This document shows, piece after piece, positions 1,095 through 12,184 of a stretch of DNA of 12,184 bases. The stretch comes from an uncultured Collinsella sp. (GTDB taxonomy: Bacteria; Actinomycetota; Coriobacteriia; Coriobacteriales; Coriobacteriaceae), in assembly GCA_900555355.1 (NCBI GenBank), contig USKV01000022.1, forward strand, positions 1 to 12,184, in the 5' to 3' direction. The notes below the pieces were generated by a model that saw only the letters and a list, made by a program, of their open reading frames with translations, did no database searches and was not told the DNA's origin. Position numbers and translations under genes: made by a program. The stretch's first letter is position 1, and every line of letters starts with the position of its first letter.

Positions 1095-1153
1095 TCTCCG
1101 AGGGGTTAAAAAGGGCTCGACAGGGGAATAAGCGCGTTGTGACTATGAGTACC

Positions 1154-1192
1154 GCCCGCCGAGCTATCGCACCCATGCGATACCCGGTGGGC
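1154..1192. promoter_or_regulatory. two-tier hairpin in the leader of the two-component operon
   Basis: The outer arm GCCCGCCG (1154-1161) pairs with 1185-1192 with one G-T wobble. The inner arm TATCGCA (1165-1171) pairs perfectly with TGCGATA (1176-1182) around a CCCA loop. No T-run follows on the + strand, so it is not a standard intrinsic terminator for the upstream gene. It may be a T-less terminator or a structured leader. The rest of the 1095-1247 gap holds no other clear feature apart from the strong AGGGGGG ribosome binding site at 1234-1240. Confidence 0.45.
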
Positions 1193-1247
1193 TCAGGTGC
1201 GTTAAAATGAGCTTGTTCTTAGCTAATTGAGACAGGGGGGCCGTGTT

Positions 1248-1970
1248 ATGGCTTCAGATGCAAAAAAGATTCTGCTGGTCGAGGATGAGAAGGCAATCCG
1301 TGACGCTGTCGCTGCCTATCTCGAGCGCGAGGGCTATTGGGTTGTGGGCGTGGGCGACGGCCAGTCCGCTATCGAGGAGTTCGAGAAGCATCAGTTCGAC
1401 CTGGTCGTGCTCGACCTCATGCTCCCCAAGATTCCCGGCGAGCGCGTTTGCCGCACCATTCGCGACACCTCGGATGTCCCCATCATTATGCTGACGGCCA
1501 AGGGCGAGATCGAGGACCGTATTATCGGCCTCGAGCTCGGTGCCGACGACTATCTGATCAAGCCGTTCTCGCCGCGCGAACTTGTCGCGCGCGTGCGCGC
1601 CTTGTTCCGCCGTGCCCACCAGGCCGATGAGCCGGCCGTCGAGGTGCTCGACTTTGGCGATCTGGTCATTGACATCTCGGGCCACAAGATTTTGGTCGAG
1701 GGCAAGGAAGTCGACCTGACGGCTTCCGAGTTCAAGCTGCTCACCACGCTTGCCCGTCACCCCGGCCGCGTCTACAACCGCATGGAGCTGGTCGAGAAGG
1801 TGCTCGGCTACGACTTTGAGGGTTACGAGCGCACCATCGACAGCCACGTGAAGAACCTTCGCGCCAAGCTGGGCGACGACCCCAAGAAGCCCAAGTGGCT
1901 CTACACCGTCCACGGTGTCGGCTACCGCTTCGAGGCTCCGACCAAGACCGATAAGTCGGACGAGAAATAA
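1248..1970 (+). CDS. OmpR/PhoB-family response regulator
   Basis: A 240-aa two-domain transcription regulator with the usual family length. The receiver domain (about residues 6-125) has the acidic pair E12/D13, phospho-acceptor D56 in LVVLDLMLP, T83 and K105 in the YLIKPF motif. The C-terminal winged helix (about 140-232) carries the typical LTASEFKLL, RVYNRMELVEKVLGYD and DSHVKNLRAKLGDD segments and ends in YTVHGVGYRFE. It is phosphorylated by a partner kinase and binds promoter DNA as a dimer. I chose ATG 1248 because AGGGGGG at 1234-1240 sits 7 nt upstream; a TTG at 1227 would lie before this site. The histidine kinase starts 12 nt after its stop, so the two genes form an operon. The signal and regulon cannot be read from the sequence; PhoP, WalR, MtrA and RegX are comparable family members. 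Confidence 0.95.
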   Translation: MASDAKKILLVEDEKAIRDAVAAYLEREGYWVVGVGDGQSAIEEFEKHQFDLVVLDLMLPKIPGERVCRTIRDTSDVPIIMLTAKGEIEDRIIGLELGADDYLIKPFSPRELVARVRALFRRAHQADEPAVEVLDFGDLVIDISGHKILVEGKEVDLTASEFKLLTTLARHPGRVYNRMELVEKVLGYDFEGYERTIDSHVKNLRAKLGDDPKKPKWLYTVHGVGYRFEAPTKTDKSDEK

Positions 1971-1982
1971 AGGAAATCACAT

Positions 1983-3548
1983 ATGACACCTGCGCGCTTT
2001 GAAATCGGGCAAAAGCATAAGCAGGAGAACGAGGCGGGTTCCAAGGCTAGTTGGAACACGCCTCGTTCCGATTCACGGCCGACGATGAGCTATCCCTCGC
2101 GCATGGCCCTGGCTTTTGCCCTGACATCGCTCATGACGGTATTGGTGCTGGTGGGCGTAGTCTCCGTTGTATGGGGCACGGTTTTTACGGATTACACACG
2201 CTCCAATATTGTCGAAATCGCCAATTCCGCTGCCGAAAAGTTGGCAACGTCATATGAGGAAAACGGTTCTTGGACCGCGGGGGAGCTGCGTACGGTCGCG
2301 ACATCGAGCTTGGTGTCCGACGATCTTGGTATGCAGGTCGTCAATAAAAAGGGCGTCATCGTCTACGACGACTCGTGGCCCTCGGCAAGCGCTACTGCCG
2401 ATGTACGCGAAAATCAGGCGACGACCGACGATGCGAGCGGAAAGAGGGCATCGCACAGCCCAGTCTCGTCTGCTCCCACCGATTCCAATAGTGTTGCCAA
2501 CGTTGAGATCGTGACGTCCTCCGGCGAGCACGTGGGTCAGGTCAAATTGTGGGCGGTTGGCTCCGATGCCCTGCTCACCAGGGCAGACTCGGCATTCAGA
2601 GAGAAGACCTTTAACGCCATGGCCCTTGCCGCGGTTGTGGCCGTCTGCATCTCGGTCGTTATCGGAGCGCTTGTGTCGCGCATGCTTACCAAGCCGATTC
2701 ATCGAATTACGAGCACGGCCAAGCAGATTCGTGATGGAGACCTGTCCGCTCGTACGGGTTTGCGCGGCGATGATGAGATCGATCAGCTGGGAGAGACCTT
2801 CGACGAGATGGCCACCTCACTCGAGAAGGACATGAAGCACGAGAAGCGCCTGACCTCTGATGTTGCCCACGAGCTGCGCACGCCGCTCATGGCCATGCTT
2901 GCAACGGTCGAGGCCATGCAAGACGGTGTGTATCCCACCGATGACGAACACCTGGAAACGGTCGCATCCGAGACGCGTCGTCTGGCCCGTCTGGTGCAGC
3001 AGATGCTCGACCTGTCGCGCATGGAAAACAGTACCGCGCCACTCAACCTGGAGCCGGTGGATATGGTGCCGTTTGTGCGCTCGATTGTGAATGGCCAGGA
3101 GCGCTTGTTTGCCGACCGTGACCTGCGTTTGCGCTTTGCAGATGAGACGCAGGGCCACGATGACGTTGTCGAGGCGGATCCCGACATGATCACGCAATGC
3201 GTCATCAACCTCATGAGTAATGCCATGCGCTATACCCCCGAGGGCGGATGGGTCGTGGTGTCGGTGCTCAGTGACCGTAAACATGTCGATATTGCGGTCT
3301 CGGACACGGGCATTGGAATCGCCAAGGAAGACCTGTCGCGTATTTTCGGACGTTTTTGGCGTGCCGACGCCAGTCGCGCCCGCGAGGCGGGCGGCCTGGG
3401 CGTGGGCCTCGCCGTGACCAAGCAGATTGTCGAGCGTCATCATGGCTACATATCCGTGGAGTCGGAGCTTGGAAAGGGTACGACTTTTACGATTCATCTG
3501 CCTCGCGAGCACACGGCGGACGCGGCATCTACTACAATGGAGCACTAG
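1983..3548 (+). CDS. membrane sensor histidine kinase of the two-component pair
   Basis: A 521-aa HisKA-type kinase. A cytoplasmic tail of about 40 residues is followed by membrane helix 1 (about 41-68), an extracellular sensor region (about 69-208) with a Ser/Asp-rich insert at 132-170, and membrane helix 2 (about 211-233). Next come HAMP (234-285) and HisKA with the phosphorylated H296 in TSDVAHELRTP. The ATPase domain has an N box around N409/N413, G1 DTGIGI at 441-446, an F box FGRFWRAD, and G2 GGLGVGLA at 470-477. All residues needed for autophosphorylation are present. It should phosphorylate D56 of the regulator encoded just upstream. AGG at 1971-1973 provides a modest ribosome binding site for ATG 1983; the in-frame ATGs at 2085 and 2103 lack one. 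The sensor region matches no ligand-binding domain I recognise, so the stimulus is unknown. Confidence 0.93.
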   Translation: MTPARFEIGQKHKQENEAGSKASWNTPRSDSRPTMSYPSRMALAFALTSLMTVLVLVGVVSVVWGTVFTDYTRSNIVEIANSAAEKLATSYEENGSWTAGELRTVATSSLVSDDLGMQVVNKKGVIVYDDSWPSASATADVRENQATTDDASGKRASHSPVSSAPTDSNSVANVEIVTSSGEHVGQVKLWAVGSDALLTRADSAFREKTFNAMALAAVVAVCISVVIGALVSRMLTKPIHRITSTAKQIRDGDLSARTGLRGDDEIDQLGETFDEMATSLEKDMKHEKRLTSDVAHELRTPLMAMLATVEAMQDGVYPTDDEHLETVASETRRLARLVQQMLDLSRMENSTAPLNLEPVDMVPFVRSIVNGQERLFADRDLRLRFADETQGHDDVVEADPDMITQCVINLMSNAMRYTPEGGWVVVSVLSDRKHVDIAVSDTGIGIAKEDLSRIFGRFWRADASRAREAGGLGVGLAVTKQIVERHHGYISVESELGKGTTFTIHLPREHTADAASTTMEH

Positions 3549-3607
3549 CTTTTCGCTATTCGGTGAAGGAGGGGTTTCGTCCCTGCCGCTCCGAGTTTGC
3601 GAAAACG

Positions 3608-3625
3608 TGCGGGGAAGAACCCGCA
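3608..3625. promoter_or_regulatory. small hairpin between the kinase gene and purC
   Basis: TGCGGG (3608-3613) pairs with CCCGCA (3620-3625) around a GAAGAA loop, inside the 109-nt gap before purC. Only a weak T-rich stretch follows (3626-3640), so it is at best a weak terminator. No purine riboswitch core is recognisable. purC may have its own promoter in this gap or be read through from the kinase gene. Confidence 0.3.
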
Positions 3626-3657
3626 TTACTGTCGTATTTAGGTAAGGAGTGACTCAC

Positions 3658-4545
3658 GTGACAACGATGGAGCGTCGTCCGGATTCCCGTGGCAAGGTTC
3701 GTGATATCTATGATGCCGGTGAAAACCTGCTGATGGTCGCCACCGACCGCATTTCTGCGTTCGACTTCATTCTCCCCGACGAGATTCCGTTTAAGGGAGA
3801 GGTGCTCAACCGCATCTCGGCATTCTGGTTCGATAAGTTTGCCGACATCGTTCCCAACCACCTCGTCTCCATCGACCCGGCGGATTTCCCCGAGGAGTTT
3901 GCCGAGTATCGTGACTACCTCGCAGGCCGCGCCATGCTGGTCAAGAAGGCCCAGACGATTCCTATCGAGTGCATCGTCCGCGGCTATCTGACCGGTTCGG
4001 GCAAGAAGACCTATGACGAGAACGGCACCGTCTGCGGCATTCAGCTGCCTGAGGGTCTGACCGAGGCCTCCAAGCTTCCCGAGCCGCTGTTCACGCCGTC
4101 CACGAAGGCCGAGATCGGCGACCACGACGAGAACATTTCGTTCGAGCGTTGCTGCGAGATCGTGGGTGAGGATATCGCCACGCAGATTCGCGACCTGTCC
4201 CTCAAGATTTACAAGGCCGCTGCCGAGTATGCCGCGACTCGAGGCATCATCATCGCCGACACCAAGTTCGAGTTCGGTGTCATCGATGGCAAGGTTACGC
4301 TGATCGACGAGTGCCTAACGCCCGACTCCAGCCGTTTCTGGCCCGCTGCCAGCTACGAGGAGGGCAAGATTCAGCCTAGCTACGACAAACAATTCGTCCG
4401 CAATTGGCTCAAAGCCAACTGGGATATGACGGGGGAGACCCCGCACCTGCCCGCCGAGGTCATCGATGGCACGTCCGAGCGCTATCGCGAGGCCTTCCAG
4501 ATCATCACGGGCTCCCAGTTCACAAGCATGAAGGAGAACGCATAA
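3658..4545 (+). CDS. purC: phosphoribosylaminoimidazole-succinocarboxamide synthase (SAICAR synthetase)
   Basis: Catalyses the ATP-dependent joining of CAIR and aspartate to make SAICAR, a step of de novo purine synthesis in the cytoplasm. The 295-aa product fits the longer bacterial and yeast Ade1-like form. Visible signatures are SRGKVRDIYD with DRISAFDF near the N-terminus (nucleotide-binding strand region), IECIVRGYLTGSGKK (family signature 1) and LIDECLTPDSSRFW (family signature 2, substrate binding). I placed the start at GTG 3658 because AAGGAG at 3644-3649 lies 8 nt upstream; an earlier in-frame GTG at 3649 overlaps that ribosome binding site, and ATG 3667 is too far from it. The next gene begins immediately at the stop codon, so the two are probably co-transcribed. 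No other purine gene is in the window. Confidence 0.96.
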   Translation: MTTMERRPDSRGKVRDIYDAGENLLMVATDRISAFDFILPDEIPFKGEVLNRISAFWFDKFADIVPNHLVSIDPADFPEEFAEYRDYLAGRAMLVKKAQTIPIECIVRGYLTGSGKKTYDENGTVCGIQLPEGLTEASKLPEPLFTPSTKAEIGDHDENISFERCCEIVGEDIATQIRDLSLKIYKAAAEYAATRGIIIADTKFEFGVIDGKVTLIDECLTPDSSRFWPAASYEEGKIQPSYDKQFVRNWLKANWDMTGETPHLPAEVIDGTSERYREAFQIITGSQFTSMKENA

Positions 4546-5121
4546 GTGAGTACCCGTAGCGCCACGAACAAGCGCACGCAATCCCACGAAGTTACCGGGG
4601 TTGCGCGCAAGTCCGCCGCATCTGCTAAGCCCGCTCGCCAGGCAGCGAGCTCCGTTCGCGTCGTGCCGGCTTCGTCTAAGGCACGCCGCAAAGAGCTCGA
4701 GAAGGGTGAAAACCTGGAAGGCCTTTCCAAGGAGGAGAAGCGCGCCCGCAAGGCCAAGCAGCGTGCTCGCGAGGATCGTATCTATACGGTGTCGAATATC
4801 CTCCTTAAGCAGGATGAGGACTACACCAAGCGCCGCCGTATCTGGTGGGCCGTGCTCGCCATCGGCATGGTACTCGTCGTGGCAATTTGGGCTTCGCTCT
4901 ACTTCGCTCCCGGCGGCACGGTGTCCAGTCCCGTCCAGATGGTCGGCATCGTTTTGTCCTATGTCATCATTCTGGGTGACTTTATCTACGACTTCGTTCG
5001 TATTCGTCCCCTGCGCAACATGTACCGCACGCAGGCCGAGGGCATGTCCGAGAACAAGCTCAACGCTCTTATCGAGCGCGCGGCTGCCGAGGAGGACAAG
5101 AAGGACTCCAAGAAGAAGTAG
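4546..5121 (+). CDS. small two-helix membrane protein with a basic N-terminus, function unknown
   Basis: 191 residues starting at a GTG directly after the purC TAA, with AAGGAG at 4531-4536 inside the end of purC. This arrangement indicates translational coupling. The first ~98 residues are Lys/Arg/Ala/Ser-rich and probably disordered or helical (SKEEKRARKAKQRARED). Two hydrophobic helices follow, at about 99-121 (WWAVLAIGMVLVVAIW...) and 130-151 (VQMVGIVLSYVIILGDFIY). The C-terminal tail is charged and ends in a Lys run. There is no signal peptide and no enzymatic motif. By the positive-inside rule both ends should be cytoplasmic, with a short external loop (APGGTVSS). I do not recognise the family; it may be a lineage-specific conserved protein. 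Coupling to purC need not mean a role in purine synthesis. Confidence 0.85.
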   Translation: MSTRSATNKRTQSHEVTGVARKSAASAKPARQAASSVRVVPASSKARRKELEKGENLEGLSKEEKRARKAKQRAREDRIYTVSNILLKQDEDYTKRRRIWWAVLAIGMVLVVAIWASLYFAPGGTVSSPVQMVGIVLSYVIILGDFIYDFVRIRPLRNMYRTQAEGMSENKLNALIERAAAEEDKKDSKKK

Positions 5122-5151
5122 CGTTTGTATTCATACATATCGCTAAGATAT

Positions 5152-5182
5152 AAGGCGCGTCGTTTTAGCGGCGCGCCTTTTT
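5152..5182 (+). terminator. intrinsic terminator after the purC operon
   Basis: AAGGCGCG (5152-5159) pairs with CGCGCCTT (5172-5179) around a 12-nt loop and runs into five T (5178-5182). It closes the purC/membrane-protein operon 30 nt after the stop and separates it from the aminopeptidase gene. Confidence 0.9.
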
Positions 5183-5210
5183 ACTGTTCTATAGATAGAT
5201 GGAGTGGCAT

Positions 5211-6491
5211 ATGATTCGAGCTGCCCTGACGGTCGAAGAAGCTCTGGAGGGCATGAAGGCCCTGGAGCCCAAGATTAAAAACTATGCGCTCCTGGTTGTC
5301 CGCAAGGGCGTAAACGTTAAGCCCGGCCAGGAAGTCGTCGTTCAGTCTCCGGTTGAGTGCGCGCCGTTTGCGCGCGTGGTGGTCGCGGAGGCCTATGCTG
5401 CCGGCGCCGGCCACGTGACGGTCATCTGGGCCGATGATGCCGTGACGAGGCTCACGTACGAGCATGTCGAGAAAAGCTATTTTGAGCAGACGCCCGAGTG
5501 GAAGCGCCTGCAACTGGATTCCCTGACCCAGGACGGTGCCTGCTTTATCTTTATCGAGGGTGCGGACCCCGCCGCCCTTAAGGGCATCGATCCCGCTAAG
5601 CCCGCTGCAGCTTCTAAGGCAAAGAACACGCAGTGTAAAGTTTTCCGCCGTGGACTGGATTACAACATCAATCCGTGGTGCATCGCCGGCGCTCCGGTCG
5701 TGGCTTGGGCGCGCGAGGTGTTCCCGGGAGACGCCGATGAGGTTGCAATCTATAAGCTGTGGAATGCGATTCTGCACACCGCTCGTGCCGATGGCCAGGA
5801 CCCGGAGAGCGACTGGGAACTCCATGACGCCGCATTCGAAAAGAACTTGCGCTTCCTGAACGACAATCGTTTTGACCGCCTACATTACACCGCGGCAAAT
5901 GGAACCGATCTGACGATTGGCATGACGAAGGGTCACGAGTGGGCCGGCGGCAAGGGTAAGACGCCCGATGGACACCCCTTCTTCCCCAACATCCCCACCG
6001 AGGAGGTCTTCACCTCGCCTGATCGTATGCGTGCCGACGGTATCGTGTATTCGGCTATGCCGCTCATTCACCACGGTAACAAGGTTGACGATTTTTGGAT
6101 TAAGTTCAAGGCCGGCCGCGTAGTGGACTACGATGCCCGTGTGGGCAAGGCAACGCTTGCGAGCATTATTGACACCGATGAAGGTGCCGCTCATCTGGGC
6201 GAGGTCGCGCTCATTTCCAAGAACACTCCGATCCGCGAAAGCGGCGTTCTGTTCTATGACACGCTCTATGACGAGAACGCTAGCTGCCATCTCGCGCTAG
6301 GTGTCGGTTTCCCCGAATGCATCGAGGGTGGGTACGACATGTCCAAGGAAGAGCTCCTGGAGCATGGCGTTAACGTCTCGAGCACGCACGTCGATTTTAT
6401 GATCGGCACGGACGACATCGATATTAAGGGCATTACGCCTGATGGACGTGAAGTTGTGATTTTCCAGAACGGCCAATGGAGTTGGGAATAG
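5211..6491 (+). CDS. M29-family metallo-aminopeptidase (AmpS/PepS/AmpT type)
   Basis: A cytosolic enzyme that removes N-terminal residues from peptides using two divalent metal ions. 426 residues, about the family length. The N-terminal lobe has the NVKPGQEVVVQSPVECAPF segment. The C-terminal lobe holds the expected metal-site series: E265 in IPTEEVFTSP, E331 in AHLGEVALI, H360 in DENASCHLALG, and H393/D395 in STHVDFMIG. By spacing from published family members as I remember them, the position of the conserved catalytic Tyr (7 after the metal His) is Phe367 here. I chose ATG 5211 because GGAG at 5201-5204 lies 6 nt upstream; ATG 5199 is in frame but overlaps that site. It follows a terminator, so it has its own promoter, possibly using TATAGA at 5190-5195, although that would give a very short leader. 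Its 3' end overlaps the tRNA-Lys promoter. Confidence 0.93.
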   Translation: MIRAALTVEEALEGMKALEPKIKNYALLVVRKGVNVKPGQEVVVQSPVECAPFARVVVAEAYAAGAGHVTVIWADDAVTRLTYEHVEKSYFEQTPEWKRLQLDSLTQDGACFIFIEGADPAALKGIDPAKPAAASKAKNTQCKVFRRGLDYNINPWCIAGAPVVAWAREVFPGDADEVAIYKLWNAILHTARADGQDPESDWELHDAAFEKNLRFLNDNRFDRLHYTAANGTDLTIGMTKGHEWAGGKGKTPDGHPFFPNIPTEEVFTSPDRMRADGIVYSAMPLIHHGNKVDDFWIKFKAGRVVDYDARVGKATLASIIDTDEGAAHLGEVALISKNTPIRESGVLFYDTLYDENASCHLALGVGFPECIEGGYDMSKEELLEHGVNVSSTHVDFMIGTDDIDIKGITPDGREVVIFQNGQWSWE

Positions 6492-6510
6492 TCCCAGACC
6501 GTGGTACAAT
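6482..6510 (+). promoter_or_regulatory. promoter of tRNA-Lys
   Basis: A -35 box TTGGGA (6482-6487) and a -10 box TACAAT (6505-6510) are separated by exactly 17 bp. The -10 box ends 9 nt before the tRNA. The -35 box lies within the last codons of the aminopeptidase gene. Confidence 0.75.
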
Positions 6511-6519
6511 GCCACCCGC

Positions 6520-6595
6520 GGGCCGTTAGCTCAGCTGGCAGAGCAGGGGACTTTTAATCCCAAGGTCCAGGGTTCGAACCCCTGACGGCCCACCA
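6520..6595 (+). tRNA. tRNA-Lys (anticodon TTT), CCA encoded; integration target
   Basis: A complete cloverleaf: acceptor GGGCCGT (6520-6526) with ACGGCCC (6585-6591), D arm GCTC/GAGC, anticodon loop CTTTTAA with TTT at 6553-6555, T arm CAGGG-TTCGAAC-CCCTG, discriminator A and encoded CCA at 6593-6595. The outermost anticodon-stem pair is a G-A mismatch. The 3' half from base 6551 onward is duplicated at 10560 because an element integrated here and supplied it, so the gene stays functional. Confidence 0.97.
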
Positions 6596-6598
6596 TAG
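6551..6598. other. attL core: 48-bp identity with the right end of the element
   Basis: Starts at the first base of the anticodon loop and ends three bases after the CCA. It is identical to 10560-10607; the flanking bases differ on both sides (A/G before, T/A after). The left boundary in the anticodon loop fits strand exchange within that loop by a tyrosine integrase. Confidence 0.93.
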
Positions 6599-6605
6599 TT
6601 TACGC

Positions 6606-6637
6606 AGGTCAGAGACGGTGTCGTCTCTGACCTTTTT
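6606..6637 (+). terminator. strong intrinsic terminator supplied by the element for tRNA-Lys
   Basis: A perfect 12-bp stem: AGGTCAGAGACG (6606-6617) pairs with 6622-6633 around a GTGT loop, ending in five T (6633-6637). It lies 10 nt past the tRNA CCA. The chromosomal terminator was displaced to 10613-10644 by the insertion, so the element replaces it. Confidence 0.92.
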
Positions 6638-6643
6638 CTTTGC

Positions 6644-6672
6644 GTACCCCGCGAGTACCCAAAACGGTACCC
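6644..6672. promoter_or_regulatory. left integrase arm-type sites, three GTACCC repeats
   Basis: GTACCC at 6644, 6655 and 6667, same orientation, spaced 11 and 12 bp, about one helical turn apart. The matching trio at the other end (10422, 10433, 10445) has the same spacing. Direct repeats in the arms near att cores are typical binding sites for the N-terminal domain of tyrosine integrases. Confidence 0.7.
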
Positions 6673-6734
6673 CTCAAATCACGTGGATTCCATAATTCTG
6701 GCCTGTCCTTAGAGGGACATAGCGTCCCGATGGT

Positions 6735-6776
6735 CGGATGGATGGATCGTTGTTGATGCATCTGTCCATCCGTCCG
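6735..6776. repeat. 12-bp inverted repeat in the left noncoding arm
   Basis: CGGATGGATGGA (6735-6746) pairs with 6765-6776 with one G-T wobble across an 18-nt loop. No T-run follows in either direction, so this is not a terminator. Part of the origin-like noncoding region between attL and the operon. Confidence 0.5.
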
Positions 6777-6808
6777 AAGGGGCAGGGGGACGGCCCGAGT
6801 GAGTGCGA

Positions 6809-6880
6809 GCGTTCTGCGCGCTTTCGACAGCCGTAGGGGCTCCATACCTAGCCCCAGGCTGTCGGAAGGGCGTTGAACGC
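6809..6880. other. large compound hairpin in the element's noncoding region
   Basis: Three nested tiers: GCGTTC (6809-6814) with GAACGC (6875-6880), CTTTCGACAGCC (6821-6832) with 6857-6868 (one wobble), and GGGGCT (6836-6841) with AGCCCC (6850-6855) around an 8-nt loop. There is no open reading frame of note and no T-run. It could be a structured RNA, a single-strand replication origin or a protein-binding cruciform next to the iterons. Confidence 0.55.
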
Positions 6881-6942
6881 GAGCCTTGAGCGCGGGTATG
6901 CCGGTGTGGCGTAATGAGCGGTCGTTGATGCACCGAAGCCCT

Positions 6943-6974
6943 ATATCTATTACTTATTTATTTATATATAAATG
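6943..6974. other. AT-rich stretch beside the iterons, possible unwinding element
   Basis: About 30 bp almost free of G and C (CTATTACTTATTTATTTATA and following), unlike the GC-rich surroundings, ending just before the first iteron at 6979. AT-rich segments next to iterons commonly serve as the melting site in iteron-type origins. Confidence 0.5.
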
Positions 6975-6978
6975 GAAT

Positions 6979-7161
6979 GTAACTTGACGTTACACCTGCG
7001 GCGCTTCTACCTGCGGTTCGAGACGCTTGAATGCCCCCTTTTGAAGGGTGGGTTAAATGTAACCTCAAGTTACACATGTGTAACCTCACGTTACAGGAAG
7101 TGTAACTTCAAGTTACAGAAGATGTAACGTCACGTTACAGGCTGGTGTAACCTCACGTTAC
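6979..7161. repeat. six palindromic 15-bp iterons, candidate origin of replication
   Basis: GTAAC-N5-GTTAC units at 6979-6993, 7059-7073, 7080-7094, 7102-7116, 7124-7138 and 7147-7161. Each is flanked by T and A, giving TGTAACnTnAnGTTACA. The last five start 21, 22, 22 and 23 bp apart, two helical turns, so all sites face the same side of the DNA. Each unit is itself a 5-bp inverted repeat, suggesting a dimeric DNA-binding protein, plausibly one of the two winged-helix-like proteins of the adjacent operon. They could alternatively be operators or partition sites. Confidence 0.85.
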
Positions 7162-7177
7162 ACTTAAACCCACCCTT
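7044..7177. repeat. inverted repeat framing the five-iteron block
   Basis: AAGGGTGGGTTAA (7044-7056) reappears in reverse complement as TTAAACCCACCCTT (7164-7177), with one extra A. The pair lies directly outside the regularly spaced iterons, so the whole block is symmetrically framed. Confidence 0.65.
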
Positions 7178-7190
7178 TTGAACACTGAAA

Positions 7191-7219
7191 AGCCGTCCCG
7201 CAATAGATGCGGGACGGCT
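7191..7219 (-). terminator. terminator of the minus-strand xis/initiator operon
   Basis: A perfect 11-bp stem: AGCCGTCCCGC (7191-7201) pairs with 7209-7219 around a 7-nt loop. Reading the minus strand, it begins 2 nt after the stop codon of the last operon gene and is followed by TTTT, the orientation needed to end that operon before the iterons. Confidence 0.85.
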
Positions 7220-7221
7220 GC

Positions 7222-7719
7222 CTAGTCGCTCCATCCCATGGACTTGGCGGCATCGAGGATGGCTGCATATCGGAGTTGTAGTATGCCGTCAACCGAGTCG
7301 ATGAGATGCCTTGATTTCAACGCCTTTCGCGCTTTGCAGACGCTCGGCCGCGCCGCGTTAAAGAATTCGGCCAGTTCGATGTCGGTTTTCTTCAAACCAC
7401 AAACCTTATAGCCCTTGCGTGAGCCGATGCGCTCATATCGTCGTATTTCTAATAGCAACTGAAGTTCAAGCTTGCCCTTCGCGGCGAGATATAGCCATCG
7501 ATCACTTTTGTCGTCACATAGCCGCGATTTGGCGGCTTCCTCGGCTACCGTTGCAGCAGCGCAGATTTGTGGCGGTTCAACGCCGCTGAGCTGTGCGAAC
7601 CGTTCACGTGTTATAGTGTTTTCAATGCTAATCGCGCCCCTCGTGGTGCTTGGCGCCGTCGGAATCACTACTTCCGACGGCGCTTCTTTTTTGGGCGGGT
7701 CGTCACTCACGGCTGTCAT
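7222..7719 (-). CDS. 165-aa protein with a winged-helix-like segment, candidate replication initiator
   Basis: Last gene of the three-gene minus-strand operon. Its ATG overlaps the stop of the preceding gene (ATGA), so it is translationally coupled. The first ~35 residues are Pro/Ser/Thr-rich and probably disordered. Residues about 50-100 form a helical Ala/Leu/Arg-rich region. About 110-155 look like a winged helix-turn-helix: KKTDIELAEFFNAA, then RPSVCKARKALKSRHLI as recognition helix, then a short wing (DSVDGILQLR). There are no nuclease, helicase or polymerase motifs. It is encoded next to the palindromic iterons, only a terminator apart, so I infer it binds them as initiator or regulator. 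I do not recognise a named family. It is full length with no sign of decay. Confidence 0.75.
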   Translation of the reverse strand: MTAVSDDPPKKEAPSEVVIPTAPSTTRGAISIENTITRERFAQLSGVEPPQICAAATVAEEAAKSRLCDDKSDRWLYLAAKGKLELQLLLEIRRYERIGSRKGYKVCGLKKTDIELAEFFNAARPSVCKARKALKSRHLIDSVDGILQLRYAAILDAAKSMGWSD

Positions 7720-8141
7720 CTCCGTTTCTTTTTGCCACGCGGGCGGCCTCCGCGGGCACCACCTACAATCATTTTTCCATGGCGCACTGCCGCGGCGTTG
7801 ATTGGGGGCAGCAAAAGCCAGTCATCCTCGGTGGCAAACGCGAGCCCTGCCGCTCTTAGCGCGTTGACGTGCTCGGCCGCAACGGTCGACTTGCCTTGGC
7901 TTCCAAACAACCATTGCGCTAGCAGACCATAATCGAGTGGTAATGCGTGCCCTTCGCGCTGAGAGGCTCGGGAACATAGCTCCAGCCAAATACCCATATC
8001 GGCGTATGCCTTGGAGCCTCGGGCGGAATGGAGTCGGTTGAACTCCTTGCAGCTCGATAGAGGCATATCGAGCTGCATTGAAGGCAGCTGCACAGACCAT
8101 GCGGCTTCGATTGCTTCTAAATTGGTTATATTGCGTCCCAT
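7716..8141 (-). CDS. 141-aa protein resembling plasmid/phage replication N-terminal domains, function unproven
   Basis: Middle gene of the operon. It starts at ATG 8141, which shares its A with the TAA of the HTH gene (TAATG), and ends in an ATGA overlap with the next gene. Residues about 28-105 contain FNRLHSARGSKAYADMGIWLELC, then LPLDYGLLAQWLFGSQGKS, then VNALRAAGLAFATEDDWLLLPP. This pattern of a helix with Ser-Lys-Ala, a helix-turn-helix and a short wing is reminiscent of Lin1244/Lin1753-type (DUF4373) N-terminal domains seen in replication modules; that match is from memory and weak. The tail is strongly basic (GGRPRGKKKRR), suitable for binding nucleic acid. Tight coupling suggests it acts with the 165-aa protein, perhaps as a two-subunit initiator. 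Confidence 0.72.
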   Translation of the reverse strand: MGRNITNLEAIEAAWSVQLPSMQLDMPLSSCKEFNRLHSARGSKAYADMGIWLELCSRASQREGHALPLDYGLLAQWLFGSQGKSTVAAEHVNALRAAGLAFATEDDWLLLPPINAAAVRHGKMIVGGARGGRPRGKKKRR

Positions 8142-8374
8142 TACGCCGCGCCCTTATCGCGAAGCCCGCAGACCGCGAGTAGGTCATCGCGGTTGAGCTT
8201 CCAACATCTACCGATTTGGACTCCACGGATGTCGTTGCGCTCGACCATGCGGATTAAGTGCTTGGCGCTAATGCCTACAGCAGCTTCAGCGGTGCTTGGA
8301 GTTATGAGCAGCGGCAGCGATTCGTATTCTCCAGCGCGAAACCGCTCAACGATGGCCTGTTCCGATTTGCGCAT
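8141..8374 (-). CDS. excisionase-like helix-turn-helix protein
   Basis: 77 residues, first gene of the minus-strand operon. Reading the minus strand, AAGGAG lies 7 nt before ATG. About 24-70 match the small excisionase/HTH_17 (MerR-like) pattern: LLITPSTAEAAVGISAKHLIRMVERNDIRGVQIGRCWKLNRDDLLAV, i.e. a helix-turn-helix, a basic residue before a beta-hairpin wing and a conserved RxW-type strand. Such proteins bend att-site DNA and steer an integrase toward excision, or act as repressors. It is the only Xis candidate in the element, but it is separated from the integrase gene by more than 800 bp and sits in the replication operon, so excision and replication may be co-regulated. The TAA overlaps the next ATG by one base. 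Confidence 0.82.
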   Translation of the reverse strand: MRKSEQAIVERFRAGEYESLPLLITPSTAEAAVGISAKHLIRMVERNDIRGVQIGRCWKLNRDDLLAVCGLRDKGAA

Positions 8375-8390
8375 GATTGCGCTCCTTTCT

Positions 8391-8430
8391 AGCCCGGTCT
8401 GGGCTGATAAGACTGGGCGGCTTTTGCCGC
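8391..8430 (-). promoter_or_regulatory. two short inverted repeats in the leader of the xis operon
   Basis: AGCCC (8391-8395) with GGGCT (8401-8405), and GCGGC (8417-8421) with GCCGC (8426-8430), lie 17 and 43 nt before the ATG on the minus strand. They could be leader hairpins or operators. The -10 and -35 boxes could not be fixed; an AT-rich tract at 8430-8445 is the likeliest promoter area. Confidence 0.35.
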
Positions 8431-8474
8431 TAAAAATAGACTAATTTGGCTATGGACCCCATGCGCACCTATTT

Positions 8475-8504
8475 GGTGCCAAGCGGTGCCAAATGGTGAC
8501 AAGC
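8475..8504. repeat. three tandem 10-bp repeats upstream of the xis operon
   Basis: GGTGCCAAGC, GGTGCCAAAT and GGTGACAAGC follow each other with no gap (starts 8475, 8485, 8495). They sit about 100 nt before the xis start, so they are candidates for a regulator-binding or activator array in the operon control region. Confidence 0.6.
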
Positions 8505-8560
8505 TCTAGCGTGGGGGCGTGTTTCCTTCTTGAACCTGTGGTTACAAGACCGTAGGTTTC

Positions 8561-8666
8561 GCCCCGCGGGGCGCCGGGTTTTAGGGCAGAGCCCTAACAA
8601 GCGCCGAACCGCAGGTTTCGGCGTGTACGCGGACGGGCAAAACGCAGTTTTGTACGGCAGCGTACG
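8561..8666. other. noncoding cluster of five consecutive short hairpins
   Basis: The palindrome GCCCCGCGGGGC at 8561, TTAGGGC with a 3-nt loop at 8581-8597, CGCCGAA with an 8-nt loop at 8602-8623, CAAAAC with loop GCA at 8638-8652, and GTACG with loop GCAG at 8652-8665. Together they fill most of the 412-bp gap between the xis operon and the 69-aa gene (8375-8786). No ORF here has a convincing start. Such a folded stretch could be an oriT, a single-strand initiation site or an RNA. Confidence 0.55.
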
Positions 8667-8753
8667 ACTCTTGCGTATTTCAAAAAACTACCCTTACGGC
8701 CATTTCGCCCGACTTCGTCTGTCCCGCTCTAAACGGTGGGTTTCCGTACTCGA

Positions 8754-8785
8754 GCCCGCCTTTCGCCTTTCGCCGAAAGGCGGGC
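8754..8785. terminator. perfect 12-bp hairpin directly after the 69-aa gene
   Basis: GCCCGCCTTTCG (8754-8765) pairs with CGAAAGGCGGGC (8774-8785) around an 8-nt loop. On the minus strand it starts 1 nt after the stop of the 69-aa gene. It lacks a T-run on both strands, so it may be a factor-assisted terminator or an RNA-stabilising stem. Confidence 0.55.
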
Positions 8786-8786
8786 C

Positions 8787-8996
8787 TTATGAGGGATCGT
8801 CTAGGGATGCTTTTTCAAGGTTGGCAAGCATCCAGCCCATGACCTTCTCCTCGTCCATTTCGAGATAGATCCGACAACCTTCCTCGTCCCTGTTGCGATA
8901 GGGCTTCGAGCGCCTGACGACATAGCCCGCCCTTTCCAGTTGGTCTGCCAGACAGCTGGCCTTAGCAGTTTCACCGCTTATCCTGAATTCGAGCAT
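8787..8996 (-). CDS. 69-aa DUF3970-like small protein
   Basis: Reading the minus strand, a strong GGAGGT ribosome binding site lies 5 nt before ATG. The protein opens with a strand (MLEFRISGET), then an amphipathic helix (CLADQLERAGYVV), then RRSKPYRNRDEEGCRIYLEMD, then a C-terminal helix (EKVMGWMLANLEKA). The beta-alpha-beta layout with a SxPYxNR...RxYLE motif recalls a small family found in phages and mobile elements that I know as DUF3970; function unknown. It stands alone between the integrase and the hairpin cluster, with its own leader at 8997-9050 containing a palindromic operator-like site. A role in element control or transfer is inference only. Confidence 0.72.
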   Translation of the reverse strand: MLEFRISGETAKASCLADQLERAGYVVRRSKPYRNRDEEGCRIYLEMDEEKVMGWMLANLEKASLDDPS

Positions 8997-9018
8997 GGTT
9001 CACCTCCGTATCATTGTC

Positions 9019-9043
9019 CCAATAGTCCGACTAGTCTTATTGG
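9019..9043. promoter_or_regulatory. palindromic operator-like site before the 69-aa gene
   Basis: CCAATA (9019-9024) and TATTGG (9038-9043) flank the palindrome GACTAGTC (9029-9036). The site lies 23-47 bp upstream of the ATG on the minus strand, in promoter range. Confidence 0.45.
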
Positions 9044-9072
9044 AAAACAGCTGTCTAGCTGGTCTTTTGTTC

Positions 9073-9098
9073 AAATCAGAGCCGATTTGCGGCTCTGA
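9073..9098 (-). terminator. hairpin between the integrase and 69-aa genes
   Basis: TCAGAGCCG pairs with CGGCTCTGA around the loop ATTTG, a 9-bp stem at about 9076-9098. On the minus strand it lies downstream of the integrase stop and is followed by ATTTG, a poor T-run. The remainder of 8997-9172 holds only the operator-like site and leader of the 69-aa gene. Confidence 0.45.
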
Positions 9099-9172
9099 AA
9101 TAGGATGTCTGGAGCCGATGGACGGTCTTTGTTTTTTCGGGCTAAAAATTGGCATCTGGACGCCGCGTAGCC

Positions 9173-10399
9173 CTATTCTCCGGCAGCGCGTAGTTCCAAG
9201 ATTTCAGCAACGGGAGGCGCCGCGGTCATTGTTGCCGCCACAGCATCCATTGCCGTTCGCTTCGCCTGGGCATTTACACCCGTGTAAATGTTGAGCGTCA
9301 TGGCGGCGTTGGCATGGCCCAGGAGCGAGGAGACAGACTTGATGTCCGTCCCCGCGAGGATCGCTGCGGTGGCGAACGTATGGCGCAAATCATGGAACTT
9401 GGGCGGCTCGCCCTCCGAGCCCACCAGCCCCAGCTGCCGAACCGTGACGGCCCAATGTCGCGACAGACGTTCGGGGGCCATGAACTCGCCGTCAGGACCG
9501 CCTAGCACGAACATCGATTGCTCGAACGGCACGCCCGCCTTAAAGCACTCGGCTCGCGCGGCGGTCAGGCGGCGAGTGAGGATCCCCGCGACTTCATCGG
9601 GCATGGGAATGCTCCTGCGACTTCCGCCGTTCTTGGGCTCCTTCTCGTAATGCCCGTTTTCTCCAAACCCGATGGATGCTTTGACGTGCAGCATCTTTTG
9701 TCCGAAATCAACGTTGCGCCACCTGAGCGCAAGCAGCTCGCCACGCCGCATACCCGTGAGCAGTGCGAGATAGATGCCGACGTTTTCGGGACAGTCTCGA
9801 GCGATGGAGAGGAACGTGAGCAGCCGTCCTCGCTCGCGCTCGTCCAGCGCGTTAGGCTCACGGTGGCGGGCTTTAGGCACACGCACGCAGTCCACGGGGG
9901 AGTAGTCGATCACGCGGAGCCTGCCGACGGCATCGCGATATGCGGCCTTGAGTAGCGTCACGCTTTTGCGGATGGTGGATGGCTTGTAGCCCTCCTCAAC
10001 GGCCCAGTTGATCCAGTTCTGAGCTGCGGTTACATCCAGCGAATCGAATTCGATGCCGCCGATTCTGCGTTCAACGAGCCGCGCGGCACCGCGGTAGTCG
10101 TAGACGGTCGAGGACTCAATCGAACCGGATGCGCTGAGCATGTCGATATAGCCGTCTAGCAGGTCTTTTACCGTTTTATGTGCCATGCTGCCGAGTTTGA
10201 GCTTCTTCTGCGCAAGGTCCTCCATCTCCTCGCGCCACTCCCTTAGCTCGGCCTGGGCTGCCCGCTTCGATTTAGAAGCCATGACTTTGCTGACCTGCCC
10301 GTACGTTCCATCCTGCTTCTTAAACTTCAGGCGACCGCGCCATCCGCCGTTGCGATATGGCAGCAGGCAGGACGAGGTGTAGTAGCGCTTTAGCTTCAT
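9173..10399 (-). CDS. int: tyrosine integrase of the element
   Basis: 408 residues, complete. It has an N-terminal arm-binding segment (about 13-60, with GGWRGRLKFKKQDGTYG and basic helices), a core-binding SAM-like domain (about 75-165) and a catalytic domain with all residues: R218 in TGMRRGEL, K256 in EPKNGGSRRSI, H336 and R339 in HDLRH, H362 in LLGH, and nucleophile Y372 in NIYTGV. It recombines the 48-bp core at tRNA-Lys. Transcription runs away from the nearby attR. The start ATG at 10397-10399 has only GGGG as ribosome binding site, and this lies inside the GTACCC site at 10402, so integrase bound to its arm sites could block its own expression. Active elements usually pair such an enzyme with a small Xis; the HTH protein at 8141-8374 is the candidate. 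Confidence 0.97.
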   Translation of the reverse strand: MKLKRYYTSSCLLPYRNGGWRGRLKFKKQDGTYGQVSKVMASKSKRAAQAELREWREEMEDLAQKKLKLGSMAHKTVKDLLDGYIDMLSASGSIESSTVYDYRGAARLVERRIGGIEFDSLDVTAAQNWINWAVEEGYKPSTIRKSVTLLKAAYRDAVGRLRVIDYSPVDCVRVPKARHREPNALDERERGRLLTFLSIARDCPENVGIYLALLTGMRRGELLALRWRNVDFGQKMLHVKASIGFGENGHYEKEPKNGGSRRSIPMPDEVAGILTRRLTAARAECFKAGVPFEQSMFVLGGPDGEFMAPERLSRHWAVTVRQLGLVGSEGEPPKFHDLRHTFATAAILAGTDIKSVSSLLGHANAAMTLNIYTGVNAQAKRTAMDAVAATMTAAPPVAEILELRAAGE

Positions 10400-10401
10400 C
10401 A

Positions 10402-10450
10402 GTACCCCACAATCGCGGTGTGTACCCGCTGCGTACCGCGCGGAGTACCC
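10402..10450. promoter_or_regulatory. right integrase arm-type sites over the int start
   Basis: GTACCC at 10402, 10422 and 10445, and GTACCG at 10433, all in the same orientation. The last three repeat the 11/12 bp spacing of the left trio. The first overlaps the int ribosome binding site and the group covers the int promoter region, fitting autoregulation. Confidence 0.7.
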
Positions 10451-10500
10451 GTGTTGAATAAACCCGCTCAGGCCGCGCAGTCCGTCTAGTCGAACGAAAC

Positions 10501-10519
10501 CGCAGGTCAGAGTTGGTGT
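10501..10519. repeat. right copy of a 19-bp repeat near the att cores
   Basis: CGCAGGTCAGAG followed by NN and GGTGT matches 6603-6621 with two mismatches, in the same orientation. The left copy is part of the tRNA terminator; the right copy is not in a hairpin. It may be another integrase or Xis binding site. Confidence 0.5.
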
Positions 10520-10559
10520 ACGGTATCACTGCTCAAGACCTAAAGCAAACGGGATTTCG

Positions 10560-10607
10560 CTTTTAATCCCAAGGTCCAGGGTTCGAACCCCTGACGGCCC
10601 ACCATAG
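10560..10607. other. attR core: 48-bp copy of the tRNA-Lys 3' half
   Basis: Identical to 6551-6598, from the anticodon loop through CCA plus TAG. It lacks the 5' half of the tRNA, so it is not a tRNA gene. It marks the right end of the 4.0-kb element. Confidence 0.93.
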
Positions 10608-10612
10608 AATAG

Positions 10613-10644
10613 AAAAGCGACTGGCGGATGCCGGCCGCTTTTTT
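10613..10644 (+). terminator. displaced original terminator of tRNA-Lys
   Basis: AAAAGCGACTGGC (10613-10625) pairs with 10630-10642 (one mismatch, one wobble) around GGAT and ends in six T (10639-10644). It lies just after attR, where the tRNA terminator would be without the element. A related copy is at 11897-11927. Confidence 0.8.
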
Positions 10645-10670
10645 GTTGCCTAGGCATGGGTTCGAACCCG

Positions 10671-10779
10671 TCGGGGCGCGGAGCTGAGTAAACGCGTGAG
10701 CGTTTGCCAGCGCAGCGCGCAAGGCGCGAAGCGCCGCAGCGGCCGCCTGCGGAGCAGGCTGAACCCCTGACGGCCCACC
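10671..10779. repeat. cluster of small hairpins ending in a third, 19-bp copy of the tRNA-Lys tail
   Basis: Stems AAACGC/GCGTTT with loop GTGA (10690-10705), nested in GCTG/CAGC (10683-10711), then GGCGC/GCGCC with loop GAA (10723-10735) and GCCTGC/GCAGGC with loop GGA (10745-10759). Then 10761-10779 repeats GAACCCCTGACGGCCCACC exactly from the tRNA. The hairpin block sits where the T-loop would begin, as if inserted into or fused to a tRNA tail. With the terminator it fills the 190-bp gap before the TraX gene; no gene is supported here. Confidence 0.6.
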
Positions 10780-10797
10780 CAAAGAAAGGTAAAAGAA

Positions 10798-11595
10798 ATG
10801 AAAACAGATAGATACGGAATTAGCGGCAGCACATTAAAGATAATAGCGGCCATCTCGATGGTTCTCGATCATGTAAGCAGGATCGTCCTGACCAATGGAA
10901 TCATGACTCACGCATCGTACAATCAGATATCAGACGAACAGTGGGCGATTCTAAGCGAGGCTTCGGATGTGCTTCATGTTCTTGGCAGAATTGCATTTCC
11001 CTTATTTTGCTTTTTGATAGTTGAGGGATTTTTGCATACTCATGACATAAAGAAGTACCTGCGAAATATGCTTGTCTTCGCAATCATTGCGGAGCCCATA
11101 TACGATTTCGTTCAAACCGGGCAGCTATTTGACCTTCGGCAACAAAATGTTATGTATGAGCTCCTGCTTTCCTTGGTTTTTTTGATTATTCTGGAAAAGA
11201 TACAAAGTTTTTCAAAATGGAAGAGGCACATTGCAGAAATTGCTCTGATTGTTTTGACAGCACTGGCAGCTGAATACACTAAGCTGGATGGCGGTGTGTA
11301 TGGCATTCTACTTGTGGCTGCATTCTATTTATTCCATGACAGCAAAGCTAAGATGTTCTTTGCTGCAGTATGTGCAGTGCTCCTTTCGTCATGCCATATA
11401 ATTGGCGGCGGATTTGAGTTCACTACAGCTAATATTTTTAATCCTGATGTTGCTGCCGCGATAATTTCGTTGTTGCTTATCAATCTTTATAATGGCAAGC
11501 GAGGACTGAAGCTGAAATATTTCTTCTACATTTTCTATCCGGCACATCTTGCACTGCTTTATGGTGTCTCACTTATTGTTTTGAACTGTCTTTAA
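10798..11595 (+). CDS. TraX-family integral membrane protein
   Basis: 265 residues, complete, with about eight membrane helices. Family features are LKIIAAISMVLDH near the N-terminus (residues 13-25), GRIAFPLFCFLIVEGF at 63-78 and FFYIFYPAHLALLYG near the C-terminus (242-256). The namesake TraX of the F plasmid N-acetylates pilin, but most homologues in gut bacteria lie outside transfer operons and their substrate is unknown; the fold is that of acyltransferase-like membrane proteins. GAAAGG at 10784-10789, 8 nt before ATG, supports this start. The gene is clearly richer in A and T than the core genes and uses AT-ending codons (TTT, ATT, AAA), pointing to transfer from a low-GC donor such as a Firmicute. 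No conjugation gene is nearby, and no clear promoter is visible upstream. Confidence 0.88.
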   Translation: MKTDRYGISGSTLKIIAAISMVLDHVSRIVLTNGIMTHASYNQISDEQWAILSEASDVLHVLGRIAFPLFCFLIVEGFLHTHDIKKYLRNMLVFAIIAEPIYDFVQTGQLFDLRQQNVMYELLLSLVFLIILEKIQSFSKWKRHIAEIALIVLTALAAEYTKLDGGVYGILLVAAFYLFHDSKAKMFFAAVCAVLLSSCHIIGGGFEFTTANIFNPDVAAAIISLLLINLYNGKRGLKLKYFFYIFYPAHLALLYGVSLIVLNCL

Positions 11596-11617
11596 AAGCT
11601 CTCAAACAAGTCTCTGA

Positions 11618-11890
11618 AAGCAGAAACAAATTGACCCTAAGACTGCTTGTGAATTACCGGAAGACCTGAGAGATGCGAGGATAGGCAACGAGGGCTGCAG
11701 AAAGATGCTACTCAGTTCTCTGGCGGATTGCATGAATCTGTATGAGGATCACTTACACACACTCATTAATAACAGTGATAAACACGGCAGATCCTCAAAA
11801 CATGAGACCGCGAAGGTCGAAAGATGCTTCGAAAGCATGAATGGCAGCGAGAAAACGAGTTCGGAAGCACCCTCTGGATGCTCCAGCATA
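11618..11890 (+). pseudogene. possible remnant of an unidentified gene
   Basis: The frame is open from just after a TGA at 11615 and reads LPEDLRDARIGNEGCRKMLL then SSLADCMNLYEDHLHTLIN, helical and protein-like. It then runs through SSKHETAKVERCFESM into the terminator hairpin at 11897 and on to a stop at 12020-12022. A genuine gene should not be translated through a terminator, there is no ribosome binding site before ATG 11705, and I recognise no family. Best read as the decayed 5'-less part of a foreign gene, or as chance. Confidence 0.3.
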
Positions 11891-11896
11891 GAAAAG

Positions 11897-11927
11897 AAAG
11901 CGATCGACTCCGGTTGGTCGCTTTTTT
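11897..11927 (+). terminator. second terminator related to the tRNA-Lys terminator
   Basis: AAAGCGATCGAC (11897-11908) pairs with 11913-11924 (two wobbles) around a TCCG loop, ending in T6 (11922-11927). The following bases match those after the first terminator (11919-11953 against 10636-10670, 35 nt with 3 differences), including the palindrome GGGTTCGAACCC. Confidence 0.75.
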
Positions 11928-11953
11928 GTTGCCGCGGCACGGGTTCGAACCCG

Positions 11954-12184
11954 AACTTCTCTATATATAAGAACGCTTGGCGAACAAAACCTGCCTTTTA
12001 CCGACGGGAAACAAATGGTTGATGGTTTTGGAGTAAAGTGGCGCTCCAGAGATGACCGATGTCTTAACACCTATAAACCAGCTGGTCATCGCCAATATCA
12101 GAAGCTGCTGCTTCGAATACGGCCTCAGTGAAACAACTGAGGGTTCTATTCATTTGTGAACAAAATATGGAGTGCCAGATTCCC
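11954..12184. other. AT-richer stretch without a supported gene
   Basis: A 35-codon frame (ATG 12052 to TGA 12157-12159, reading TPINQLVIANIRSCCFEYGL) has no ribosome binding site and may be debris of a foreign gene. A 6-bp hairpin CCTCAG/CTGAGG lies at 12123-12142 without a T-run. Nothing else is recognisable up to the window edge. Confidence 0.4.

Follow-up and report, generated by a model that had tools for sequence, protein, structure and literature searches.

A stretch of 12,184 nt from an uncultured Collinsella sp. (assembly GCA_900555355.1, contig USKV01000022.1, positions 1-12,184 of the forward strand), hereafter the window, carries an element of 4,009 bp at a tRNA-Lys gene. A repeat search of the window identified a perfect 48-bp direct repeat with an offset of 4,009 bp, the left copy of which forms the 3' part of tRNA-Lys(ttt). 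The element is interpreted here, with a probability of roughly 0.7, as a relaxase-less integrative mobilizable element (IME) of Collinsella, of the type termed iOriT or mobilizable genomic island (MGI), with a putative iteron origin; its transfer, excision and replication are proposed from the sequence. The features of the locus are collected in Table 1.

Five intact frames, all on the minus strand, lie between the repeats and encode the integrase (int) and proteins of 69, 77, 141 and 165 amino acids (aa). They were scanned against Pfam, PHROGs and NCBIfam at E<=1, where none was found to be a relaxase, a coupling protein or a mating-pair protein, and Pfam recognised no Rep family among the five. 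The PHROGs matched are of the integrase and excisionase types, along with unnamed weak ones. The 77-aa protein matches HTH_17 and TIGR01764 with E-values of 8.4e-6 and 1.2e-5, respectively, which fall just short of the curated cut-offs, and agrees with the helix-turn-helix (HTH) excisionase candidate proposed in a first-pass annotation of the window. The description of the 69-aa protein as DUF3970-like in that annotation finds no support, its sole Pfam match at E<=1 being CysS_C (E 0.022, below the cut-off). Two winged-helix-like proteins had also been proposed, and signals of this kind are indeed carried by the 165-aa and 141-aa proteins. In the former, the match to a Crp-like HTH is weak (E 2.5e-5, below the cut-off) and recurs at E<=0.1 in all 40 members of the family alignment; a profile search against the sequences of solved structures returned four weak matches, the best of them an HTH repressor (E 0.0049), and the predicted structure was too poor for a structure search. 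In the 141-aa family, HTH_36 is matched at E<=0.1 by 11 of the 40 alignment members, and the winged-helix core of the predicted structure is modelled with confidence (mean pLDDT 73.6). Foldseek returned no match to this model at E<=0.001, and the 141-aa profile matched nothing among solved-structure sequences at E<=1. Comparison of the model with VIA-align recovered a winged helix of a widespread kind; among the broader matches two chains bear initiator titles, and we take these to be staphylococcal RepA N-terminal domains. An Rfam scan at E<=1 matched the tRNA alone, and a reading of the non-coding parts as structured RNA was rejected on this ground.

Table 1. Features of the tRNA-Lys-associated element in the window
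Feature	Position	Strand	Basis or detail
tRNA-Lys (ttt), target gene, whole at attL	6520..6595	+	ARAGORN; Rfam RF00005
attL core, 48-bp direct repeat	6551..6598		repeat search; empty sites
Intrinsic-terminator-like hairpin, strong, just inside attL	6606..6633	+	terminator scan
Three GTACCC repeats, putative left integrase arm sites	6644..6672		
Long imperfect hairpin common to helper-type contig, putative single-strand-DNA signal	6805..6885		
AT-richest 30-mers of the element (93% AT), putative unwinding element	6942..6973		
Iteron 1, 17-bp palindrome (6-5-6)	6978..6994		
Iterons 2-6 (starts 7058, 7079, 7101, 7123, 7146; spacing 21-23 bp)	7058..7162		
GC-rich inverted repeat past the 165-aa gene, possible terminator	7191..7219		sequence reading; 6-5-6 core at 7197; absent from terminator-scan output
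165-aa protein, C-terminal Crp-like HTH, putative iteron-binding initiator/regulator	7222..7719	-	
141-aa winged-helix protein with basic tail, putative replication partner	7716..8141	-	
77-aa HTH_17/excise-like protein, putative excisionase	8141..8374	-	profile scans
Candidate oriT: inverted repeat TTAGGGC-TCT-GCCCTAA, then AACCC (8576-8597), and second conserved block (8625-8675)	8570..8675	-	
69-aa protein, no family above cut-off	8787..8996	-	Pfam/PHROGs/NCBIfam
408-aa tyrosine recombinase (integrase)	9173..10399	-	Phage_integrase E 4.1e-24
GTACCC/GTACCG repeats, putative right integrase arm sites	10402..10450		
attR core, 48-bp direct repeat	10560..10607		repeat search; empty sites

The tRNA-Lys region was searched against 43 Collinsella genomes, all of which gave matches, and loci were obtained from 30 of them; the tRNA pattern was found in 23 loci, the other seven having diverged sequence. 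An empty site is present in three of the 30 loci (L014, L018 and L019), where the tRNA-Lys ending in CCATAG is followed directly by AATAGAAAAGCGACTGG, as in the right flank of the window. Two of these (L014 and L018) hold the full exact empty site, that is, the tRNA, CCATAG and AATAGAAAAGCGACTGGCGGATGCCGGCCGC of the right flank, and the third is exact as far as the end of its contig. A further locus (L015) has an empty site with one difference, and the remaining loci have other downstream sequence. Exact empty sites in other Collinsella genomes thus prove, by comparison, an insertion at tRNA-Lys, with the left repeat copy leaving the tRNA intact, and the repeat, the tRNA and the empty sites together bear out the earlier proposal of a unit of about 4 kb bounded by a 48-bp tRNA-Lys duplication. 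The insertion was presumably made by the element's own integrase, and the hairpin just inside attL is probably a replacement terminator for tRNA-Lys. Site-specific integration, seen here in the integrase, the direct repeats and the empty sites, is among the defining properties of iOriT elements and MGIs. One full relative (L001) is inserted at the corresponding tRNA-Lys, likewise with the 48-bp core, in Collinsella sp. WCA1-178-WT-3 (genome G001); it is 10,160 bp long and its int is 97% identical to that of the element.

The tRNA-Lys site may have been used before. The region at 10761-11940 of the window probably stems from an earlier insertion here: a TraX-family gene (10798-11595; PF05857, E 1.5e-53) is flanked on one side by tRNA-Lys 3'-end fragments (10761-10779) and on the other by 50 bases at 11887 that recur, without a difference, directly downstream of tRNA-Lys in another Collinsella genome (L016).

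The first-pass annotation had seen nothing for transfer in the element, which proved wrong: the non-coding block at 8570-8675, which has a counterpart on a conjugative contig of Collinsella, is most plausibly an origin of transfer (oriT), at which nicking would take place. It aligns over 106 bp at 88.7% identity (E 1.4e-31) to L043, a 19.9-kb piece of the 93-kb Collinsella contig G005:C59, and the two best matches of the element to this piece are the oriT block and the long hairpin. The match lies near a relaxase gene of G005:C59, the product of which matches PF03432 and is 92% identical to a relaxase of another genome (G012), the next best homologue in the genus being 49% identical; the G012 relaxase likewise matches PF03432 and its gene is preceded by a NikA-like gene. 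G005:C59 also encodes a CD1115-type VirD4 and a CD1110-type VirB4, both above the cut-off, and a TrbL-like protein below it, these conjugation genes being about 62 kb from the relaxase. An element of the G005:C59 type, known from another genome, is hence a candidate helper, and the resemblance in sequence between the oriT of the element and that of a conjugative helper is a further property expected of iOriT elements and MGIs.

The distribution of the oriT sequence was examined in genomes and in plasmids. A 22-base motif, allowing at most one mismatch, occurs in four of the 43 Collinsella genomes and in the same four of 396 Coriobacteriia genomes (0 for a reversed control). Its carriers are G001, which holds the relative L001, G024, G005:C59 and G012:C98, the motif contig of G024 being probably the NZ_CP084005 plasmid. 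Both oriT blocks are present in all four positive loci, beside these relaxase or NikA-like genes, in contrast to 10 stretches of 6.5-14 kb around other Collinsella relaxase homologues, where neither block was found; this control comprises the 10 loci scanned, one further relaxase match, without a locus, lying outside it. When 8400-8790 was searched against plasmid records at E<=10, four were matched, of which Collinsella aerofaciens NZ_CP084005 alone is significant (E 5e-12); the other three (E 0.1-0.3) are of interest for location only. In a Brevibacillus plasmid, the inverted repeat (33-60) precedes mobC (92) by about 30 bp and the relaxase gene (413), and in C. aerofaciens NZ_OY725718 a NikA-like and a relaxase gene follow it at a distance of 1.2 kb.

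Two of the plasmids show peculiarities of their own. The third weak match (E 0.3), Helicobacter pylori p2HPAKL117 (L007), is a plasmid of 2.9 kb that has a Rep gene and no gene annotated for mobilization, and in it the oriT-like repeat occurs at 1732-1757 and 287-312; it is possibly an oriT-only plasmid. NZ_CP084005 (L008) has, at 26703-27006, two oriT-like copies that differ from one another and face opposite ways, together with a NikA-like gene and no relaxase among its annotated genes listed.

Comparison with L001 indicates how the parts of the element have been conserved. The DNA identity is 97.5% for the oriT, 93.8% for the hairpin and 86.9% for int, and 68.3% for the 165-aa gene, 61.3% for the 141-aa gene and 55.8% for the AT-rich and iteron stretch, the oriT block being the best conserved of the compared non-coding stretches outside the att sites. 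These values bear on the view that the locus is a small integrative plasmid, spread mainly by natural transformation or vertical descent, with an oriT-like block acquired by chance and left unused. In its favour are the replicon-like set of iterons, AT-rich stretch and two DNA-binding proteins, and the lack of a relaxase gene in scans of the three profile databases; however, an unused block should drift, and this block is kept at 97.5% while the nearby replication genes stand at 61-68%. The plasmid view is accordingly considered unlikely.

The second segment common to the element and the helper-type contig is the long imperfect hairpin. It matches L043 in two places, over 81 bp at 86% identity (E 2.8e-21) and at 78%, and among the 43 Collinsella genomes the sequence is found at E<=0.001 only in G001, which holds the relative, and on G005:C59. 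The fold has an energy of -55.8 kcal/mol, computed for a 125-base stretch of the window, against about -102 for one of the helper copies, which is an almost perfect inverted repeat; the corresponding stretch of L001 adopts a different minimum-energy fold (-38.2). The nearly perfect copy (L043 13846-13924) lies close to a run of N at 13990-14089 and may be an assembly effect. On G005:C59 the first copy is 2.0 kb from the oriT; in a circular form of the element the distance between hairpin and oriT would be 2.1 kb, with side and orientation as on the helper contig, and the hairpin would lie 415 bp upstream of int, across attP only. A sigma-70 promoter was considered for the hairpin and rejected, no promoter-like site being found in the element against 1.7 expected; therefore a role in priming is preferred over that of a promoter, and the hairpin is proposed to act in second-strand priming or early expression in the recipient. 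The sso1 of ICEBs1 and the Frpo of the F plasmid are DNA signals that act on the transferred single strand. They offer functional precedents for the hairpin, as an idea and not by sequence comparison: sso1 as a single-strand origin (PMC4595007) and Frpo, named in PMC9849209, as a signal on the transferred strand.

The first-pass annotation had suggested a helper-dependent satellite or an integrative plasmid, which was roughly right in spirit, the sequence comparisons favouring a hitchhiker on conjugation in place of a phage satellite. A minimalist satellite packaged by a helper phage would show a similar economy of genes, with int, small HTH proteins, replication-like genes and no capsid genes, and the PICMIs of Vibrionaceae are described as reduced in gene content (PMC10803314). 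Against it, no packaging or interference gene of phage origin was recognised among the PHROGs matches, no DNA match was found at E<=1e-5 in 50,697 phage records, scans of IMG/VR viral contigs with the 165-aa and 141-aa families gave no relative, 34 bases of the oriT were likewise without a match in viral contigs, and the positive links in sequence are to conjugative DNA. Although the element may still contain a cos or pac signal, the phage-satellite reading was rejected as very improbable, and the evidence points to a conjugative element rather than a phage as the helper.

Searches with the two putative replication proteins identified 101 relatives of the 165-aa protein and 56 of the 141-aa protein. 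The longest contig falls at 3,985-4,057 bp for 17 of the former and 13 of the latter (30 of 157 rows together); further size classes are found at 5,590-5,650 bp (seven and four rows, respectively) and, for the 165-aa protein alone, at 3,460-3,485 bp (seven rows against none). The clustering near 4.0 kb shows a discrete, recurrent unit, and that near 5.6 and 3.48 kb suggests further size classes. The 4.0-kb contigs were rejected as proof of a free circle: at a 48-bp repeat, short-k assemblies would break at both ends of an integrated, polymorphic copy and yield almost the length of the circle, so that these contigs indicate a discrete unit and do not prove a circle. One of the 165-aa relatives (P0096) is from Collinsella sp.; the family occurs in one of the 43 Collinsella and one of the 396 Coriobacteriia genomes, which are the same genome, and the 165-aa protein has no match in the plasmid records.

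The relative L001 has the ends and the backbone of the element, together with about 6 kb of cargo in a single slot between the 165-aa gene and the iterons (L001 4190-10380). The cargo includes an ABC-F-like gene resembling those for ribosomal protection, below the curated cut-off, and a sortase-like gene, also below the cut-off; two further frames look like istA and istB of IS21. The earlier statement that there is no cargo thus holds for the copy in the window and not for L001. Since L001 is the same backbone with cargo, the window copy is the minimal form of a cargo-capable backbone and not a remnant. Decay from a larger integrative and conjugative element (ICE) or prophage, which the first-pass annotation had named as the finding that would speak against its view, would agree with the small size, the lack of transfer genes and the greater length of L001 (10.2 kb). 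It is nevertheless extremely improbable, as all five frames are intact, the form of about 4.0 kb recurs in the 30 rows given above, the extra DNA of the one larger homologue is confined to one slot beyond the 165-aa gene, and neither of the two L001 cargo frames run against Pfam is an ICE or phage structural gene.

The putative replication origin lies downstream of the stop of the 165-aa gene, in a stretch without any other assigned gene. Iterons had been reported in the first-pass annotation, and six exact 17-bp palindromes (TGTAAC-N5-GTTACA) were found in the 4 kb of the element, where about 0.0002 would be expected by chance. The AT-richest 30-mer of the whole element adjoins iteron 1; positions within 45 nt of an iteron make up about 6% of the element. 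The arrangement is thus that of iteron theta plasmids (Rep_3/RepA_N), in which iterons in helical register stand next to an AT-rich stretch. In L001 the AT-richest 30-mer is at the same place, with five repeats, three of them perfect, and a distance of 79 bp from the first to the second repeat, compared with 80 bp in the window. The palindromes have the 6-5-6 form in both, with different arms, TGTAAC/GTTACA in the window and ATTGAC/GTCAAT in L001. The recognition helices of 40 members of the 165-aa family fall into the classes RPSVCxARKAL, xDSMSRTKNAL and TAQSMSRTTLAL, with a few variants, and the proteins of the window and L001 are in different classes, that of L001 being read from the sequence. 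As the two elements differ in HTH class as well as in iteron arms, the 165-aa protein appears to be the best candidate for the iteron binder, a lead drawn from two loci.

These observations are consistent with the following cycle. The element would be inserted by its own tyrosine integrase into the 3' end of tRNA-Lys(ttt) and excised by the integrase with the small HTH protein as directionality factor. A conjugative element resident in the same cell may then nick the oriT of the resulting circle with its NikA/VirD2-type relaxosome and pass one strand through its type IV secretion system (T4SS). In the recipient, the hairpin would help to start second-strand synthesis or early expression, and the iteron and AT-rich origin, with the 165-aa and 141-aa proteins, would maintain or amplify the circle up to its integration. 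The iterons are most likely bound by the 165-aa protein. A more speculative extension, which we hold to be doubtful, is that the element mimics its helper in two signals, the oriT and the hairpin, with the hairpin priming or switching on int only in a newly entered circle, and that the iterons and the 165-aa protein form a swappable incompatibility module, giving rise to families of co-existing 4-kb hitchhikers.

The element illustrates how few parts an integrative element may need in order to spread: besides an integrase and a small HTH protein, a putative module for the origin and a transfer origin that is borrowed. It also supplies queries for further searches, with a concrete sequence for the oriT, a candidate for the helper and a family that recurs in a genus common in the gut. 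Actinomycete ICEs (AICEs, pSAM2 type) are characterised by an FtsK-like Tra translocase and a RepSA-type initiator, neither of which is among the five genes in Pfam, PHROGs and NCBIfam. Tn5520 of Bacteroides fragilis encodes its own mobilization protein, unlike the present element. It is, however, an integrative mobilizable element of similar size (4.7 kb; PMC5704250).

Relaxase-less IMEs have already been named as classes, MGI (PMC5704250) and iOriT (PMC11389934), and the earlier proposal of a type not yet described was thus too strong; according to PMC5704250, comprehensive searches for them had never been performed as of 2017. Like MGIVflInd1 and its relatives in Vibrio, and GIE492, the element has its own tyrosine integrase and a helper-like oriT and carries no relaxase or T4SS genes, and the directionality factor of the MGIVflInd1 family has a putative counterpart here (PMC5704250). 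However, the 17 tyrosine-integrase MGIs given in that source are 18-33 kb in size, compared with 4.0 kb, and the MGIVflInd1-type islands differ from the element in its Coriobacteriia host, its putative iteron origin and the hairpin held in common with a helper-type contig. MTnSag1 and tISCpe8 (1.7-2.0 kb) are likewise very small, lack a relaxase and are mobilized in trans, but they have a DDE transposase and a non-significant oriT match (PMC5704250), whereas the element has a tyrosine integrase, a tRNA target and a strong oriT match. Two IMEs with a Rep_3 entry, SGI1 and BcenGI2, resemble it in that they carry replication genes of their own (PMC5704250; for SGI1 replication, PMC7433901); SGI1, however, is 42 kb, and the Rep_3 genes of both islands are recognised ones, in contrast to the element. 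With the PICMI phage satellites (PMC10803314) it has in common minimal gene content, integration and helper dependence, but its helper appears to be conjugative and no link to phages was found in the records and viral contigs searched.

Among the titles listed in searches of the open-licence literature, none concerns such an element in Collinsella; the paper on IME_Rho_tet (PMC12904643) mentions Collinsella once. The class itself is known, and this member stands apart by its tyrosine integrase at a length of 4.0 kb, by its host group, by a putative origin with iterons and by a second segment resembling that of a helper.

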